From Hyphomicrobiales bacterium (lineage in GTDB: Bacteria; Pseudomonadota; Alphaproteobacteria; Rhizobiales; BM303): a stretch of DNA of 37,271 nucleotides. The DNA lies in contig PKTQ01000286.1 in NCBI GenBank assembly GCA_002869085.1, forward strand, positions 1 to 37,271, written 5' to 3'. Below, piece by piece: positions 21,841 to 32,148 of this stretch (the first letter of the stretch is position 1; the number at the start of each line of letters is the position of its first letter). Under the pieces are notes generated by a model. The model searched no databases. It had not been told where the DNA came from and was given only the letters and a program-made list of their open reading frames with translations. Position numbers and translations under genes: made by a program.

Positions 21841-22586
21841 TGCCACCACTCGCCGGAAAAATTCACGAACCCCGCCCCGCGCATCACCCGCAGCAATAAT
21901 TGCCGATTGGCCCTGGCCGCCGCGCCGACCCGCTGGCTGGCTGTGGCGGAAAGCTTTGAGAAACAGTCAAAATCAGTGCCCATGTCCAGTTCGCCCGGGC
22001 GCGCCCGGCGCCCTGCGGGGGTGGGGGCATCGCATCTGAGCCCGTCGCGTTCGGTCGCCCGGCCTATCGCTGCGGCGGGTGCCGGGGCCGGCAGCCGGAC
22101 CAAGGTGATGTCGACCGCGCTGCCGCGCGAATGGGACGAGCGCCGGGCGATGAAGCCGGCCCGGAACAGGCCCGGCTTGGTGTAGGCGGGGAAATAATAG
22201 GCGCGGGTCGGGGCCGGGCGCTTGTCCTTCGCCCAGGCGATAATATCGCGCACCGCCCGCGCCGGGCGGGTGCAGTCCAGCACTTTCAGCCCCAGCCCCC
22301 GCGATTGGAGCTTATCGGCGGCGCGTTTGAGCGCCGCCGCCGCGGCCCGGGTCAAAATGCAGCGCGGCGCAAGATAGCCCTTGAGCCGCCGGCCGGTGAA
22401 ATTATCCGCCCCGGCATAACGGATATCCTGCGCCACCGAAGGCGCGATGTCTTCCAGATAGGTAAAACCCGGCGGCAGTGAGTCCGCCCCCGCCGCCGGC
22501 AGCGCCGCCATCAGGCTCAGGACCAGGCCCGGCAGCGCCCACTTGCCCGGCCACCGCACGCCCGCCGCCCTGCCGGGGCGCATCAC
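21783..22586 (-). CDS. VanX-like D-alanyl-D-alanine dipeptidase (M15), predicted secreted
   Basis: Signal-like N-terminus, DIRYAGADNFTGRRL, SSHSRGSAVDITLV, EWWHYKL (zinc/catalytic motifs of the M15D family). Confidence 0.88.
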   Translation of the reverse strand: MMRPGRAAGVRWPGKWALPGLVLSLMAALPAAGADSLPPGFTYLEDIAPSVAQDIRYAGADNFTGRRLKGYLAPRCILTRAAAAALKRAADKLQSRGLGLKVLDCTRPARAVRDIIAWAKDKRPAPTRAYYFPAYTKPGLFRAGFIARRSSHSRGSAVDITLVRLPAPAPAAAIGRATERDGLRCDAPTPAGRRARPGELDMGTDFDCFSKLSATASQRVGAAARANRQLLLRVMRGAGFVNFSGEWWHYKLKLEPFPARSFDFPIR

Positions 22587-24049
22587 TCAAAGCCCATATA
22601 GGACAGAGCGGTGTCGGTATATTTGCGTCCCTGATAGACGCTGCGAATGGTCAGGCGGATCCAGGTCACTTTTTCCGGGTTTTTCAGGGTATAGACCTGC
22701 CGGCGCGCATGGTCACCCAGCCGGATCGGATAACGCTTTCCGGTCGAAGTTTCCAGCAGCGCCCGCGCGATGCGGTTATTGCTGGAGAAGGTCTTGCCGG
22801 TGCGCCCATAGCCGTTGCGGAACACAATCCGCGACACCAGCCTTTCGGCGCCGAAATCGAACAGCACCCATTGGCCGATGCCGTGGCCGGCGGCGTTTTC
22901 CACCCAGGCCATGCCGTCATTCCGGGTCAGGTTGCGCATGCGGTAATTATATTTGCCGCTTCCTTGCGGGCGCAGCATGGACGAGGCGCAGACCCGCCCG
23001 CGCCCGGCATGGTCGCACAGCCCCGCGCCGAGCGGCGGCAGGGCGGCATGGCGCTGCACCGGGCGCGCCGGCTCCGGCGGCAGCGGGTTGATGGCCGGGG
23101 CGACGGGGCCGGGCAGGGGCCTTGGATTGACAACCGGCGGGGCGGGGGCGGCCTTGTAGGTCGGGGCGCCGGGGCTTTCCACCAGGGAGGCGAAGCGGGG
23201 GTTTTGCATCAGCGCGCTGAGAGGCGTGCCGCTATTGAACGAGGTGCGCGAGCCTTCGGTCAGCCCGCCGGAATGATGCAGCGCCACCGCCTCGAAATCC
23301 AGATTGAAAATCAGCGAGCCGGAACTGCCGCCCAGCGTGTCGCAGCGGTGGCGGAAACGCGGCCCCGCATAGGGCTGTGGCGCATAGGCCTTGCAGCGGA
23401 ACCGGGTCAGGCGCTTGGGCATGCCGGCCGGATGATGGACGATGAACAGGGACTGGTTGGGCCGCGCCTTGCTCAGTTTCAGCTTGAAGGTGCCGAATTT
23501 CCGCTCCGGGCTGCCCTCGACCCGGAGCAGGGCATAATCCATCTTCCGGTTGGCGCTGATCGGGCGCACATCCACCTTGTAGCGCGGCGCTTTGGTCTGG
23601 TCCTCGCGCAGATAATCGAACACCGCCAGCGCCTTCAGGGTGCGCACGCCCGGCTTTTTGCCCGGGATGCAGTGGTAATTGGTCAGCAGAATGCCCGGGG
23701 CGATCAGATTGGTGGTGCAGGTGGCGACGAATTTGCGCCCGTCCGGGCGCTGTTTCAGCATATCGAGCCGGGCGATCGGTTTGCTGAACTGCCGGTAGCG
23801 GTCATCAATATTGAACTCGGAAATGGGCTCGAACGCACCGCCCTTCTGTGCCTGCAGCAGCGCATCATTACCCCCGGTGCTCTGGTTCGGCACCAGCAGC
23901 AATTCGCCGAAACTGTCGGCCGGAAAGGTGAAATCCACTGCCCTCGCGCCGGTTGCGCCGGCCAGTGGCATCAGCGCCGCCAGAGCGATGAGCGCCACAA
24001 GCCCCGCGCGCCGGGCCGCTTGCGGTTCATGCCGGATTTTCGCTGCCAT
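22583..24049 (-). CDS. secreted trypsin-like serine protease with C-terminal NADase-type (discoidin-like) glycan-binding domain
   Basis: Triad contexts LTNYHCI (His), MDYALL (Asp), GGSSGSL (Ser); Pro-rich linker; C-terminal ASSMLRP...DGMAWVENAAGHGIGQWVLFDF...RNGYGRTGKTFSSNNRI...IRSVYQGRKYTDTALSYMGFE. Confidence 0.8.
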   Translation of the reverse strand: MAAKIRHEPQAARRAGLVALIALAALMPLAGATGARAVDFTFPADSFGELLLVPNQSTGGNDALLQAQKGGAFEPISEFNIDDRYRQFSKPIARLDMLKQRPDGRKFVATCTTNLIAPGILLTNYHCIPGKKPGVRTLKALAVFDYLREDQTKAPRYKVDVRPISANRKMDYALLRVEGSPERKFGTFKLKLSKARPNQSLFIVHHPAGMPKRLTRFRCKAYAPQPYAGPRFRHRCDTLGGSSGSLIFNLDFEAVALHHSGGLTEGSRTSFNSGTPLSALMQNPRFASLVESPGAPTYKAAPAPPVVNPRPLPGPVAPAINPLPPEPARPVQRHAALPPLGAGLCDHAGRGRVCASSMLRPQGSGKYNYRMRNLTRNDGMAWVENAAGHGIGQWVLFDFGAERLVSRIVFRNGYGRTGKTFSSNNRIARALLETSTGKRYPIRLGDHARRQVYTLKNPEKVTWIRLTIRSVYQGRKYTDTALSYMGFE

Positions 24050-24163
24050 TGTCACATCCCCCAAGCCGCCTGTCCTGCTTTCTGCCCAGACTATCCCCGA
24101 GGCGCCGGCCAAGTCCAGAGAGGCCCGAATGCGGCGAGGAATAGCCGCGAGGCAAACAAAGTC

Positions 24164-25939
24164 CTAATTCAGCCCGTAATACCAGGGCGCAAACAGCGAA
24201 AACGTTGCCCAGATCACCAGCACCAGCGGCCCGCCCGAGCGCAGATAATCGGCAAAGCGGTAATTGCCCGGCGCCATCACCAGCAAATTGGTCTGGTAGC
24301 CGATCGGCGAGGCGAAGGAGCAATTGGCGGCGAAGATGATGGCATGCACGAACACCAGCGGCGGGATGTTGAGCGAATGGGCCATGCCGATGGCGATCGG
24401 GGTCAGCAGCAGGGCGGTGGCATTGTTCGAGAGCACATTGGTCAGCACCGCGGTCAGCAGGAACAGCGCCGACAGGATCACCGCCGGATGCACCCCCATC
24501 AGGCTGCGCACCAGATTGTCGGCCAGATATTGTGCCCCGCCGGTATGCTCCAGGCTGAGCGCCATGGCGATACTGGAGGCGATCAGCATGATGATCTTGC
24601 CGTCGATCGCCCGCCCGGCCTGCTGAATATTGACACAGCCGCAGGTCAGCATGCCCAGCGCCCCCAATGTGGCCGCCAGCACCATCGGCACCAGGCCGCT
24701 GGCGGCGGCGGCGATCACCGCGCCGAAAATCAGCAGCGAATGATTGGCCAGCGAAAAGTCGCGGATCGTCGAGACCGAACCCTGCAGCACCATCAGGTCA
24801 CGATTGAGGCGCAGCTTGCGCAAATGGACGCGCGAGCCGGCGATCAGCAGCACATCGCCCGGGCGGATCCGCACCCGGTTCATCGGCAACCGCTTCATGC
24901 GCTTCAGCCGCTGCAGGCCGATCAGATGGCAGCCGGTGCGCTCGAAAAACGCCTCGTCATGGGCCGGCTGGCCCGCCAGCCGCGAACCGGGCGCCACGGC
25001 GGATTCGGCGATGAACAGATGCTCGCCGTCGGTTTCCAGTTTCAGCAGCGCCATCACCGCGTCCCGGTCGCCCGAGATATGCACCTGATCGCCGGGGGCG
25101 AGCACCACATCCTCATAGGGTGCCAGCAAGGTGTGCCCGGCCCGGTCGATTCCGATCACCGAAACCGTGGTCAGGCTGCGGAACAGCCCGGCCTCATTTG
25201 CCTCCCCCGCCATCGGGTGGTGGTCGGTGATATGCAGCCGCGCCAGAAACTGCTTGCCGCTGCGGCGCGCGCCATCCTCGCTCGCTCCGGCCCGGCGCCG
25301 CAGCAGGCGCGGCATCACCAGCCCCACATAGAGCCCGCCGACCCCCGCCAGCAGCAGGCCGGGGATCATCAGATCGAAAAACCCGATCCTGATGCCGTGA
25401 TCCGTTTCCAGCAGCCCGGCCACCAGCAGGTTGGTCGACGAGCCGATCAGCGTCGTCATGCCGCCCAATATGGTGATATAGGACAGGGGCAGCAGCACCG
25501 CGCCGGCCCCAGGCCCATAGCGATTGGCCAGCGCCGCCACGATCGGGATGAAGATCACCACCACCGGCGTGTTGTTCATGAAGGCGCTCAGGAAGCCCGC
25601 CCCGGCCAGGATCACAAAGAGCAGCACCCGGGTCTGAGAGGCGCTGCGCCGGCTGGCCGAGAGAATCTGCATCAGCCCGTCCAGCGCCCCGGTCTGCTGC
25701 AGGCCCTGTCCGATCACCAAAAGCGCCAGAATGGTAATCAGCGCCGGATTGGCGAAGCCGGACAGCAGCGTGGCCGCACCCAGCAGATTGGTGCCGCTCT
25801 CGCCGGCCACCGGAAACAGGTGAAACACCAGCAGCAGCGCGGTGATGACCCCCAGCGATGTGATCTCGAGCCGCACCCATTCGGTCGCGAACAGAATCAC
25901 CGCCCCCAATATGATGGCGAATGTCAGCCACATAAGCAT
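24164..25939 (-). CDS. SLC13/DASS family permease with central TrkA-C (RCK_C) domains
   Basis: Multi-TM, FMNNTPVVVIFIPI and LSNNATALLLTPIAI repeat motifs, GMTTLIGSSTNLLV, central soluble TrkA-C-like region. Confidence 0.9.
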   Translation of the reverse strand: MLMWLTFAIILGAVILFATEWVRLEITSLGVITALLLVFHLFPVAGESGTNLLGAATLLSGFANPALITILALLVIGQGLQQTGALDGLMQILSASRRSASQTRVLLFVILAGAGFLSAFMNNTPVVVIFIPIVAALANRYGPGAGAVLLPLSYITILGGMTTLIGSSTNLLVAGLLETDHGIRIGFFDLMIPGLLLAGVGGLYVGLVMPRLLRRRAGASEDGARRSGKQFLARLHITDHHPMAGEANEAGLFRSLTTVSVIGIDRAGHTLLAPYEDVVLAPGDQVHISGDRDAVMALLKLETDGEHLFIAESAVAPGSRLAGQPAHDEAFFERTGCHLIGLQRLKRMKRLPMNRVRIRPGDVLLIAGSRVHLRKLRLNRDLMVLQGSVSTIRDFSLANHSLLIFGAVIAAAASGLVPMVLAATLGALGMLTCGCVNIQQAGRAIDGKIIMLIASSIAMALSLEHTGGAQYLADNLVRSLMGVHPAVILSALFLLTAVLTNVLSNNATALLLTPIAIGMAHSLNIPPLVFVHAIIFAANCSFASPIGYQTNLLVMAPGNYRFADYLRSGGPLVLVIWATFSLFAPWYYGLN

Positions 25940-26044
25940 GACCGACAGGCTACTTTATTCCGCCGCCGATTGGTATTTGCTTTGTGCAAAAAAATGATGC
26001 GCCCGGTGGCCGGCCCGCCGGCGGCGCGGCGGCGCAAATAGACC

Positions 26045-26072
26045 TTGCATTTTTTGCCCAATGTTCTATTTT
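26045..26072 (+). promoter_or_regulatory. putative sigma-70 promoter of the rimP-nusA-infB operon
   Basis: TTGCAT-N16-TATTTT upstream of the structured leader. Confidence 0.4.
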
Positions 26073-26100
26073 GCGCCTGTCGCATTGACGGCTCTCATAC

Positions 26101-26154
26101 AGGTCCGCTGGTTCGGACATATTCGGAGAGCGGGCCGGGAGGTCCGCTTTTTTT
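26101..26154 (+). promoter_or_regulatory. attenuator-like leader upstream of rimP
   Basis: Hairpin GTCCG-CTGGTT-CGGAC (26103-26118), then terminator GCGGGCC-GGGA-GGTCCGC-TTTTTTT (26130-26154); AGGTCCGCT repeated exactly at 26101 and 26140. Confidence 0.7.
26130..26154 (+). terminator. intrinsic terminator within rimP leader
   Basis: 7-bp stem (one G-U) with GGGA loop followed by seven T. Confidence 0.8.
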
Positions 26155-26167
26155 GTTGGTTTCAATG

Positions 26168-26239
26168 TCCGGCCCGGACGGGAAGATAGAGTCCGGCCGG
26201 GACGGGATGATAGAGTCCGGCCCGGACGGGATGATAGAG
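26168..26239 (+). repeat. three tandem 24-bp repeats immediately before the probable rimP ATG
   Basis: TCCGGCCCGGACGGGAAGATAGAG / TCCGGCCGGGACGGGATGATAGAG / TCCGGCCCGGACGGGATGATAGAG; in frame would encode (SGPDGMIE)n. Confidence 0.95.
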
Positions 26240-26806
26240 ATGTCACAGGCAGGTGAGCAGCAGGCCCCGGAGGCCCGGTTCTATTCAGAAACCGGCCCGG
26301 CCCTGGCGGTGGCCCGGCTGGCCGAGCCGGTGATCGAGGATATGGGCTACCGGCTGGTGCGGGTGCGCATCTCCGGCGAAAACGGCTGCACGGTGCAGGT
26401 CATGGCCGAGCGTCCCGACGGCACGCTGAACATCGATGATTGCACCGAAATTTCCCGGGTGCTCTCGCCCCTGTTCGACGTGGAGGAGCCGGTGTCCGGG
26501 ACCTATCATCTGGAGGTGTCCTCGCCCGGCATCGACAGACCCCTGGTGCGGGCGTCGGATTTTGGGCGCCATGCCGGCGAGGAGGCCAAGCTGGAGCTGA
26601 AAGCCCCGATGGCCGGCCGCAAGCGCTTTCGCGGGCGCATCGAGGGCGCAGAAGGGGGCGAAGCCCGGATCGTTGTGGATCTGGACGAATTTGAGGAGCC
26701 GCAGGTCATCGGCCTGCCGCTGAATGAGATTGCCGAGGCCAGGATCGTCTTTGATCCCCAGCCTCACAAACCCGGCCGCGCCGGCAAACACCGCAAGAAG
26801 CGGTAG
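26240..26806 (+). CDS. rimP: ribosome maturation factor RimP (start uncertain: 26240, 26231, 26207 or 26165)
   Basis: RLAEPVIEDMGYRLVRVRIS..., IDDCTEISRVLSPLFDVEEPVSGTYHLEVSSPGIDRPL. Confidence 0.94.
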   Translation: MSQAGEQQAPEARFYSETGPALAVARLAEPVIEDMGYRLVRVRISGENGCTVQVMAERPDGTLNIDDCTEISRVLSPLFDVEEPVSGTYHLEVSSPGIDRPLVRASDFGRHAGEEAKLELKAPMAGRKRFRGRIEGAEGGEARIVVDLDEFEEPQVIGLPLNEIAEARIVFDPQPHKPGRAGKHRKKR

Positions 26807-26850: not shown

Positions 26851-28488
26851 ATGTCGCAGACAGGCGTAAGCGCAAACCGGCTGGAGCTGTTGCAGATCGC
26901 GGATGCGGTGGCACGGGAGAAGAGCATTGACAAGGGCATTGTGATCTCCGCCATGGAAGAGGCGATTCAGAAGGCGGCCAAATCCCGCTACGGCATGGAA
27001 AACGAAATTCGCGCCGAGATCGACTCCAAGACCGGCGAGATCCGTTTGCAGCGCCTGCTCGAAGTTGTCGAGAATGTGGAGACCGAAGCCACTGAGATCA
27101 GCCTCGAGGAAGCGCTGGCGCGCAATCCGGCCGCCAAGGTCAGCGATTATATCGCCGAGCCGCTGCCGCCGGTGGATTTCGGGCGCATCGCCGCCCAGAG
27201 CGCCAAGCAGGTGATCGTGCAGAAGGTCCGCGACGCCGAGCGCGAGCGCCAATTTGAGGAATATAAGGACCGTACCGGCGAGATCGTGCACGGGCTGGTC
27301 AAGCGGGTCGAATATGGCAATGTGGTGGTGGATCTGGGCCGCGCCGAGGGCGTGGTGCGCCGCGACGAATCCCTGCCGCGCGAGAACTTCCGCAATGGCG
27401 ACCGCATCCGCGCCTATATTTTCGATGTGCGCCGCGAGCAGCGCGGGCCGCAGATCTTCCTGTCGCGCACCCGGCCCGAATTCATGGCCAAGCTGTTTGC
27501 CCAGGAAGTGCCGGAGATTTATGACGGCATCATCGAAATCCGCTCGGTGGCCCGCGATCCGGGCAGCCGCGCCAAGATCGCGGTCATCTCCAATGACAGC
27601 TCCATCGACCCGGTGGGCGCCTGTGTCGGCATGCGCGGCAGCCGCGTCCAGGCGGTGGTGAACGAGCTGCAGGGCGAAAAGATCGACATTATCCCCTGGT
27701 CGCCCGACGCGGCCACCTTCATCGTCAATGCGCTGGTGCCGGCCGAGGTCGCCAAGGTGGTGCTGGACGAGGATGCCGAGCGCATCGAGGTGGTGGTGCC
27801 CGACGAGCAACTCAGCCTGGCCATTGGCCGGCGCGGCCAGAATGTGCGTCTGGCCTCCCAGCTCACCGGCTGGGATATCGATATTCTCACCGAAGAGGAG
27901 GAATCGACCCGCCGCCAGGCCGAATTCAATCAGCGCAGCGAAATGTTCATGGAGGCGCTCGACGCCGACGAGCTGATCGCCCAGCTCCTGACCTCGGAAG
28001 GGTTTTCCTCGGTGGAGGAAGTCGCCTATGTCCAGCTCGAGGAGATTGCCGGCATTGAGGGCTTTGACGAGGACATCGCCGAGGAAATCCAGACCCGCGC
28101 CCGCGAATATCTCGACCGGCAGAACCGGGAGAACGACGCCCGCCGCAAGGAACTGGGCGTGGAGGACGAGCTGATCTCCATCACCGGCATGAACATGGCC
28201 ATGATGGTGGCGCTCGGCGAGGACGGCATCAAGACGGTTGAGGATTTCGCAGGCTGCGCCACCGACGATCTGATCGGCTGGAACGAGCGCGACCGCGAAA
28301 AGGGCGAGAATGTGCATAATGACGGCATTCTGGAAAGCTTCAAGCTGTCGGCAGAGCAGGCCAATGAGATGATCATGGAAGCGCGCATCACGGCGGGCTG
28401 GATCACCGAGCAGGATCTGAACGCCGATGCGGAAGCCGGCGAGGCCGGGGAGGCCGAGGCTGAAGCTGAAACGGAAGCCGAGGGGTAA
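26851..28488 (+). CDS. nusA: transcription termination/antitermination protein NusA
   Basis: S1 domain, KH domains ([53 protein letters not shown]), C-terminal HhH repeats. Confidence 0.97.
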
Positions 28489-28499
28489 GAGTTAGCGGA

Positions 28500-29135
28500 T
28501 TGAGTGAGCGCACCTGCATCATTACCCGCCGCCAGGGGACGCCGGATGAGATGATCCGTTTTGTCGCCGCGCCTGACGGCGAGGTGGTGCCGGATCTGAA
28601 GGCCCGGCTGCCCGGCCGCGGCGCCTGGGTCACAGCCAGAACCGATCTGGTCGCCCGGGCGGCGGCCAAGGGCGCTTTTGCCCGGGCGCTGAAGATGAAG
28701 GTGCGGGCGCCGGAAGATCTGGCTGAGCGGGTCGCCGGACTGCTGAAACAACAGGCCCTCGGCGCCCTCTCCATGGCGACGGGGGCGGGCCAGGTGGTGG
28801 CCGGCTTCGCCAAATCCGAAGCCGCCATCGCCGCGGGCAAGGCCGGTGTCGTGCTGCACGGCGCCGACGGCGCCCCGGACGGGCTGCGCAAGCTGCGCCA
28901 AGCCGCGCGCCGCGTCTCAGATGAAGGCGCGGCCGGTCCGCAATGGATCACCGGGTTCAATTCGGATGAATTGGGCTTGGCCATGGGGCGTGAAAGTGTG
29001 GTACATGCTGTCGTGAAACCGGGACGCATGGCCGCGGCTTTTGCGCGAAAAGCCATGAAATGGCATCATTTTGTCGATGCCGATGGAATTGAGGATGATA
29101 TGACGGTGCCGGCTGGCAGCACCGCACGGGAATGA
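28500..29135 (+). CDS. YlxR/DUF448 domain RNA-binding protein with C-terminal L7Ae-like domain (TTG start)
   Basis: [20 protein letters not shown]...PGRGAWVTA; nusA-ylxR-infB synteny. Confidence 0.9.
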
Positions 29136-31669
29136 GTATGAGCGATAAAGACGATACCGAAGGCAAGAAACTTTCAGCCCCGGGCAAGCGACTCAGCCTG
29201 ACGCGGACCGTGGATGCGGGCCGGGTCAAGCAGAGTTTTTCCCATGGCCGCAGCAAGTCTGTGGTGGTTGAAAAACGGCGCAAGCGCGTCATGCGTCCGA
29301 TGGACGGCCCCGCGGCGGCTGAAAAGCCGGCGGCTCCGGCCGCCAAGCCGGCTGCGCCTGCCCCCGCCTCCGCCAGGACCGAGCCCGCCAAGGCGCCGGC
29401 GCCGCGTCCGGGCCGCGATGCGCCGAGCCTGACCGATGATGAGATGAAAGCCCGCGCCCATGCGCTGGAAGAGGCCCGCACCCGCGAGGTCGAGGACCGG
29501 ATTCGCGCCGAGCGCGAGGCCAAGGAGCGCGCCGAGCGCGAAGCGATCGAGAAGCGCGAGGCCGAGGAACGGGCCAAGCGCGAGGCCGAAGAGGCAGCCC
29601 GCCTGGCCGCCGAGCGCGCCGAGGCCGAGCGCCTCGCCGCCATCGAGCAGGCCAAGGCGCCGGCCCCGTCCGAGAAGCCGGCCGCCAAGCCGGCACCGGC
29701 GGAAAAGAGCGACGATGACGCCGCGCGCAAGAAGCGCCAGCGCCCCGAAGTCAAACAGCCGGCCCGCAAGGCTGCGACCGGCGACCGCCGGCGCGGCAAG
29801 CTGACCATTGCCAATGCGCTGGACGATTCGCCGCGCCAGCGCTCGCTGGCCTCGATCCGCCGGCAGCAGAAAAAGAACAAGCAGACCGCCACCGCCGAGG
29901 CCCGGCAGAAGATCGCCCGCGAAATCGTCATCCCGGAAGCCATCACCATTCAGGAACTGGCCAACCGCATGGCCGAGCGCGCTGTGGATGTGATCAAGAT
30001 TCTGATGTCTCAGGGCCAGATGATGAAGATCAACGACATTCTGGACGCCGACACCGCCCAGATCATCGCCGAGGAGATGGGCCATCACGTCAAGCGTGTC
30101 GCCGAGGCCGATGTGGAAGAAGGCCTCTACGGCGAGGATGACGACAGCGAAGACATGCTGCCGCGCCCGCCGGTGGTGACCATTATGGGCCATGTCGATC
30201 ACGGCAAGACCTCCCTGCTCGACGCCCTGCGCGAAACCGATGTGGTGGCCGGCGAGGCCGGTGGCATCACCCAGCATATCGGCGCCTATCAGATCGAGGT
30301 CGGCACGGGCCAGAAGGTGACCTTCCTGGACACCCCCGGCCATGCCGCCTTTACCGCCATGCGCGCCCGCGGCGCCAAATCGACCGATATCGTGGTGCTG
30401 GTGGTGGCTGCCGATGACGGGGTCATGCCCCAGACCATCGAGGCGATCAACCACGCCAAGGCGGCCGAGGTGCCGATCATCGTCGCCATCAACAAGATGG
30501 ACAAGCCCGATGCCGATCCGAGCCGCGTGCGCAATGAATTGCTGCAGCACGAAGTGTTCGTCGAAAGCATGGGCGGCGACATTCTGGAAGTGGAGGTCTC
30601 CGCCCTCAAGCGCCAGAATCTCGACAAGCTGGTCGAGACCATCCTGCTGCTGGCCGAAGTGCAGGAATTCAAGGCCAATCCGAACCGGCTCGCCGAGGGC
30701 AGCGTGATCGAAGCCAAGCTCGACAGGGGCCGCGGCCCGGTGGCCACGGTTCTGGTGCAGCGCGGCACGCTGCATACCGGTGAGATTTTCGTGGCCGGCT
30801 GCGAATGGGGCAAGGTACGCGCCCTGCTCGACGACAAGGGCCGCCAGGTGGCCGATGCGCCGCCCTCTCTGCCGGTTGAGGTGCTGGGGCTGGGCGGTAC
30901 GCCCGAAGCGGGCGATCTGTTCGCCGTGGTCGAGTCGGAAGCCCGCGCCCGCGAAATCACCACCTATCGCCAGCGCAAGGACCGTGACCAGCGCGCCGCC
31001 GGTCTCGGCCGCACCTCGCTGGAGCAGATGATGCACCAGATCGGCCAGACCGGGAAGAAGGAACTGCCCATCCTCATCAAGGGCGATGTGCAGGGCTCGG
31101 TCGAAGCCATTAACGGGGCGCTCGACAAACTCGGCACCGACGAGGTCGTCGCCCGCATCGTCCATTCCGGCGTCGGCGGCATCACCGAATCCGATGTCAC
31201 CCTGGCCACCGCTTCCAATGCGGTCATCGTCGGCTTCAATGTGCGCGCCAATAGCCAGGCCCGCCAGGCCGCCGAGCAGGAAGGCATCGAAATCCGGTAT
31301 TACGCGGTCATTTACGACCTGGTCGACGATATCAAGGCGGCCATGTCCGGCCTGCTCGATCCGACCCTGCGCGAGACCTTCTTCGGCAATGCCGAGGTCC
31401 AGGAGGTGTTCCACATCTCCAAGGTGGGCAAGGTGGCCGGCTGCCGGGTGACCGAGGGCGTGGTGCGCCGCGGCGCCCAGGTGCGCCTCATTCGCGATGA
31501 CGTGGTGATCCATGAGGGCACATTGTCGACCCTGAAACGCTTCAAGGACGAGGTGAAGGAAGTCAATGCCGGACAGGAATGCGGCATGGCTTTCGAAAAA
31601 TACCAGGATTTGAAAGCCGGCGATGTGATCGAATGTTTCGAGGTGGAAACCATCGAGCGCACGCTCTAA
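29132..31669 (+). CDS. infB: translation initiation factor IF-2
   Basis: [36 protein letters not shown]; long charged N-terminal region. Confidence 0.97.
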
Positions 31670-31696
31670 TCCCTTGATTGCTAGATAAAACCGCCT

Positions 31697-31729
31697 GCCG
31701 GGAAGATGGCGTTTCGCCTTCTGCCCGGC
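31697..31729 (+). other. infB-rbfA intercistronic hairpin
   Basis: GCCGGGAAGATGGCG-TTT-CGCCTTCTGCCCGGC; 13/15 pairs, no T-tract. Confidence 0.7.
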
Positions 31730-31755
31730 CGGAGCGGGAATATGGGCTGAATATC

Positions 31756-32148
31756 ATGAGCCGAAACCGCGAACCGAGCCAGAGACAATTGCGGGTGGGG
31801 GAATTGCTGCGCCATGAACTGGCCAGCCTGCTGGCTCGCGGCGAAATTCACGAGCCGGTGCTGCAGAGCGTGGCGGTGACGGTGAGCGAAGTGCGCGTCA
31901 GCCCCGATCTGAAACAGGCCACCGCCTATATCGTGCCGCTCGGCGGCGCCCATCTGCCCGAGGTGCTGGAGGCGCTGATGCGCGCCCGCAAATATATCCG
32001 TGGCTGTGTCGGCCATGCGGTCGGGCTCAAATATGCGCCGCAAATCGCCTTCGAGGCCGATACCAGCTTCGACTATTCCGATCGCATCGAGGCCATTTTG
32101 CACAGCCCGGCGGTGGAACGCGACCTGAGTGCGGACGAAGACGGCTGA
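31756..32148 (+). CDS. rbfA: 30S ribosome-binding factor RbfA
   Basis: SQRQLRVGELLRHELASLL...VSEVRVSPDLKQATAYIVPLGG. Confidence 0.94.
   Translation: MSRNREPSQRQLRVGELLRHELASLLARGEIHEPVLQSVAVTVSEVRVSPDLKQATAYIVPLGGAHLPEVLEALMRARKYIRGCVGHAVGLKYAPQIAFEADTSFDYSDRIEAILHSPAVERDLSADEDG

Follow-up and report, generated by a model that had tools for sequence, protein, structure and literature searches.

A predicted attenuator in the rimP-nusA-infB leader of Hyphomicrobiales: a conserved intrinsic terminator and a competing upstream hairpin

The leader ahead of the essential genes rimP-nusA-infB in a genome of the Hyphomicrobiales is probably a transcription attenuator, as judged from its sequence and from the leaders of its relatives. 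The general anatomy of such an element, namely a promoter, a terminator in the leader and a mutually exclusive antiterminator, all before the genes, can be recognized here, and we infer that termination and readthrough actually take place at this site. The terminator belongs to a known and widespread kind of leader, while the competing hairpin, which is conserved across the order, appears to be previously undescribed.

The window, meaning the whole stretch of 37,271 nucleotides analysed, contains the operon downstream of the leader on the plus strand, with the genes assigned by Pfam domains: rimP, the first gene (26240-26806; RimP_N, DUF150_C), nusA, whose product is the proposed regulator (26851-28488; NusA_N, S1, KH_5), ylxR (28500-29135; YlxR), infB, for translation initiation factor IF-2 (29132-31669; IF-2, GTP_EFTU, IF2_N), and rbfA (31678-32148; RBFA). 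The upstream neighbour (24164-25939) lies on the minus strand and is divergent from rimP, so that a plus-strand terminator between the two can act on the rimP transcript only; this rules out that the hairpin is the terminator of an upstream gene. A plus-strand open reading frame at 22478-26041 (1187 aa) is antisense to the genes in that region. A predicted promoter, found by pattern match, occupies 26044-26072 on the plus strand, with a -35 element CTTGCA(T) and a -10 element TATTTT; the pattern CTTGCA-N15-19-TATTTT has this single match in the window and none in 100 shuffles. Transcription would then start at about 26079, with the U tract ending roughly 75 nt farther on. Upstream of the terminator, the form CTTG(C/A)-N14-19-TA.. 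is present in 66 of 92 non-redundant leaders, against 1.8 expected, and a stricter form in 46 of the 92, never between the terminator and the gene; the median distance from the -10 element to the terminator 5' arm is 39 nt in these leaders.

Between the terminator and the rimP ATG, positions 26167-26239 hold three tandem 24-nt copies of GTCCGGCCCGGACGGGATGATAGA, a repeat found nowhere else in the genome. The copies are in frame with rimP and are preceded by an ATG at 26165; they may extend RimP by 25 residues (SGPDGMIE repeats), or may instead be a young untranslated expansion.

The earlier note on this DNA had described an intrinsic terminator with a T7 tract in the rimP leader, and fold energy, shuffles and conservation all confirm it. 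Its 5' arm, GAGAGCGGGCC (26126-26136, plus strand), contains the near-invariant GAGAG(T/C)GGG of the order; its 3' arm and U7 tract (26148-26154) form GGUCCGCU (26141-26154, plus strand), the stop predicted from the fold and the stem conservation. The hairpin has an energy of -19.0 kcal/mol (z -4.1), reached by none of 200 shuffles, and its stem in the window is GGGCC..GGUCC with one G-U pair; a plain scan for terminator patterns would be expected to return about 1.2 matches per kb in shuffled sequence here. The T tract ends at 26154, 86 nt before the rimP ATG at 26240.

We collected the regions upstream of rimP from 60 other genomes of the order and from 80 named records, which include Hyphomicrobium, Methylobacterium, Microvirga, Bosea, Roseibium and Pseudovibrio; some leaders are common to both sets (L131 of Bauldia litoralis is L015, and L079 of Hyphomicrobium sp. 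is L007), which assigns the window to the Hyphomicrobiales. The terminator, as GAGAGYGGGnCC..GGnCCCGCTCTTTTTT, stands ahead of rimP in 131 of 141 regions; two of these matches (L050 and L135) are probably spurious and were excluded from later analysis. The alignment of relatives that the earlier note had called for bears the stem out: across 77 aligned leaders, standard pairs fill 94.2% of terminator stem cells, and both sides have changed in 6 of the 11 pairs. A model of the terminator finds matches in 51 of 61 genomes of the order, and the stem G(U/C)GGG..CC(C/G) recurs throughout the order and the class. Of 108 leaders from other orders of the class, 69 have a hairpin of the G(T/C)GGG type with a T tract ahead of rimP, and the exact form GTGGG..CCGCTYTTTTT has 19 matches in 143 class genomes, 12 of them at rimP. 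These comparisons establish the terminator as both genuine and conserved.

Near the top of the stem, one pair (26135:26142 in the window; alignment A3 columns 54/67) is non-standard in 28 of the 77 leaders, often C with A, with all of its neighbours conserved; as read from the alignment, the stem may be deliberately kept weak. A second match of model R2 in the genome (C171:1234-1306) was set aside as an ordinary terminator after a porin-like gene, the gene having been identified by eye. In a genome of another order (G177), the terminator model matches contig C5 strongly at two places separated by 2.7 kb, 26599-26673 and 29315-29389 (L187, L163), neither of them at rimP.

The conserved alternative to this terminator is a helix between CUC(A/U), near the 5' end of the transcript, and GAGAG, the first bases of the terminator 5' arm. 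In the window, folds of truncated transcripts pair GCUCUC (26091-26096, plus strand), which contains the conserved CUC element, with GAGAGC (26126-26131), so that the two structures hold 26126-26131 in common. The helix encloses an inner hairpin, GUCCG-N6-CGGAC (26103-26118, plus strand), which is predicted from folding and from stem covariation in one clade; the earlier note had proposed this hairpin (its 1:2 pairing), and it does fold, as the inner stem of the conserved ON structure, but the outer helix 26091-26096:26126-26131 had been missed. The calculated energies for the window are -29.1 kcal/mol for the terminator and -28.5 kcal/mol for the antiterminator, a difference of 0.6 that comes from a simple model at 37 C and is not a measure of termination efficiency.

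Across the 92 leaders, CTCA is present in 64, compared with 29 in shuffles, and the arm has a paired probability of 0.81 versus 0.65 in dinucleotide-shuffled leaders (Wilcoxon p 5e-12, a value that is optimistic because the leaders are related). The strongest evidence for the antiterminator is an arm-swap test, since kinship alone makes no complementarity between two separate segments: the fold of a leader is more stable with the arm native to it than with one from another genome (interaction -1.04 kcal/mol, z -5.6 in the order; none of 5000 permutations as strong), and the same holds in other orders (z -3.8). Leaders shuffled with dinucleotides preserved gave a mean of -0.12 (sd 0.17), and none of 32 reached the observed value. 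In the sequence-aligned Microvirga/Bosea/Methylobacterium clade, the outer helix is 99% paired and 4 of the 5 inner-helix pairs carry compensatory changes; pairing falls to 37-39% when the structure is slid by 1-2 columns. No outer-helix pair has changes on both sides in this clade alignment, so support for the outer helix comes from the shuffles and the arm-swap test. Across the order the sequence of the inner hairpin is unconstrained, and some leaders, such as L022 and L047, are exceptions with no clear CUC:GAG helix. The clade model R1 was rejected as a general detector of the antiterminator, being too sequence-bound (4 weak matches).

The earlier note had built its switch on a different feature, the repeat AGGTCCGCT, of which copy 1 would pair with GCGGGCC (1:3), or copy 2 with CGGAC (2:4), to allow readthrough. 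The repeat does occur exactly twice, at 26101-26109 and 26140-26148, with no other copy on either strand of the window, and CGGAC (26114-26118), GCGGGCC (26130-26136) and the T7 tract (26148-26154) lie exactly where they had been placed; the 1:3 fold is also feasible in this genome, at -28.0 kcal/mol, near the energies of terminator and antiterminator. However, none of the other leaders has the repeat, that of the other genome of the genus included, and among the 92 leaders the window alone shares more than 6 nt between the terminator 3' arm and the upstream leader. It is also at chance level in this GC-rich window, where exact 9-mer direct repeats at offsets of 15-60 nt occur in 46 places, AGGTCCGCT included. 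Thus it is the terminator and its competitor, both conserved, that exceed chance, and the repeat does not. We consider a switch of the 1:3 or 2:4 kind very improbable; the comparisons support a mutually exclusive alternative to the terminator but not these two ON foldings. In this species alone, the repeat may nonetheless contribute to readthrough.

A more serious alternative, which we nevertheless think unlikely, is that there is no RNA switch: the terminator would be weak and constitutive, a protein such as NusA would modulate it directly, and the upstream hairpin would be incidental. In its favour, conservation is far higher in the terminator than elsewhere in the leader, and the same proposal was published for the general rimP-leader, which shows no antiterminator (PMC2965389); against it, each upstream segment suits its own arm more closely than composition explains, and arm pairing exceeds that of shuffles. 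Control by a ribosome translating a leader peptide, or by a ligand-binding aptamer, seems to us the least probable of all. An ATG precedes the arm in 44 of 92 leaders and one group of leaders has CTCATGATCATCTCAAC in common, yet a Shine-Dalgarno-like motif with a start is found in only 8 of the 92, and the frame after the shared ATG is not preserved (L007, L063). An aptamer, for its part, would have to fit into a median of 39 nt between the -10 element and the arm, which is too short; the sequence of the inner hairpin is unconstrained, and no Rfam family matches in the window or in 20 relatives. The block CTCATGATCATCTCAAC itself is near-invariant directly before the terminator arm in ten leaders (L007, L010, L044, L056, L060, L063, L064, L075, L094 and L109) from Hyphomicrobium-like and related genomes, and is far more conserved than the other leaders of the order.

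In the attenuator that we favour, once RNA polymerase had passed 26131, nascent GCUCUC (26091-26096) would pair with GAGAGC (26126-26131) around 26103-26118, and the antiterminator would occupy the lower half of the terminator 5' arm. If it persisted, polymerase would read through into rimP-nusA-infB; if it were melted, if its 5' strand were covered, or if polymerase paused long enough for refolding, the terminator (26126-26136/26141-26148) would form and, with the U7 tract, end transcription near 26154. The antiterminator would be complete at 26131 and the terminator 3' arm only 10-17 nt later, so readthrough would be the fast-folding outcome, and termination would thus require that the outer helix be opened or prevented.

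Our guess is that the switch provides product feedback, most likely by NusA, a protein known from other bacteria to promote intrinsic termination. CUCAAU reportedly occurs in the RNA to which the KH domains of M. tuberculosis NusA bind, and NusA might bind the CUCA element here and favour termination. It is a tentative idea, with the odds against it, that CUCA is a KH-domain site in the antiterminator 5' strand, at which free NusA would block the antiterminator and force termination; if true, the leader would be a direct RNA sensor of the NusA level in Alphaproteobacteria. Such capture of CUCA by NusA would fit the reported NusA control of the operon in E. coli (PMC6511841, PMC2965389).

In E. 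coli, NusA reduces expression of the rimP-nusA-infB operon (PMC6511841; PMC2965389), and the metY-rimP-nusA-infB leader has terminators t1 and t2 upstream of rimP, with NusA control reported (PMC6511841). The operon core and the terminators upstream of rimP are shared with the present leader; the E. coli leader also has a tRNA gene, several promoters and RNase III sites, whereas here there is one predicted promoter and a leader of about 75 nt. Rfam family RF01770, the gammaproteobacterial rimP leader, likewise has a terminator and a potential antiterminator before the same gene, but its 102-position tandem structure is its own: neither the window nor any of 61 genomes of the order gave a match at its gathering score (47 bits), while the E. 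coli control was positive. The broader Rfam search that the earlier note had suggested returned no family match in the window or in 20 relatives; a weak match to L20_leader (16.8 bits, against a cut-off of 58.7) consisted mostly of the terminator. We found no description of a rimP/nusA leader in this clade in the literature searched, which took in few subscription papers, and one may exist elsewhere.

The closest relative is the 'rimP-leader' attenuator of Naville & Gautheret 2010, whose general form (their Figure 2b), upstream of rimP-nusA-infB, has a G-rich 5' arm, a C-rich 3' arm, a GGGc..gCCC core, a U tract and 4-130 nt to the gene, and for which a termination response to NusA was proposed (PMC2965389). 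The present leader is alike in its site upstream of rimP, its arms, its GGGc..gCCC stem, its U tract and its distance to the gene, which falls within that range from the second in-frame ATG at 26165 as well. On these sequence features its terminator is an alphaproteobacterial form of the published attenuator, which settles in part whether the element had been described, a question that the earlier note had left open: the terminator had been, but the general form has no visible antiterminator (PMC2965389). The rimP-leader has been called the most ubiquitous transcription attenuator, and its mechanism was left open because no antiterminator was visible. The competing helix, conserved in one order and with hints of the same in other Alphaproteobacteria, offers a concrete and easily mutated switch that would govern the operon making NusA and IF2, with the CUCA element as a candidate place where NusA reads its own level. 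The absence of an antiterminator from the general form was given as an observation and not as a requirement (PMC2965389), and it is here that the present leader departs from it, having a conserved antiterminator as well as a GAGAGYGGG arm that is longer and specific to the order.
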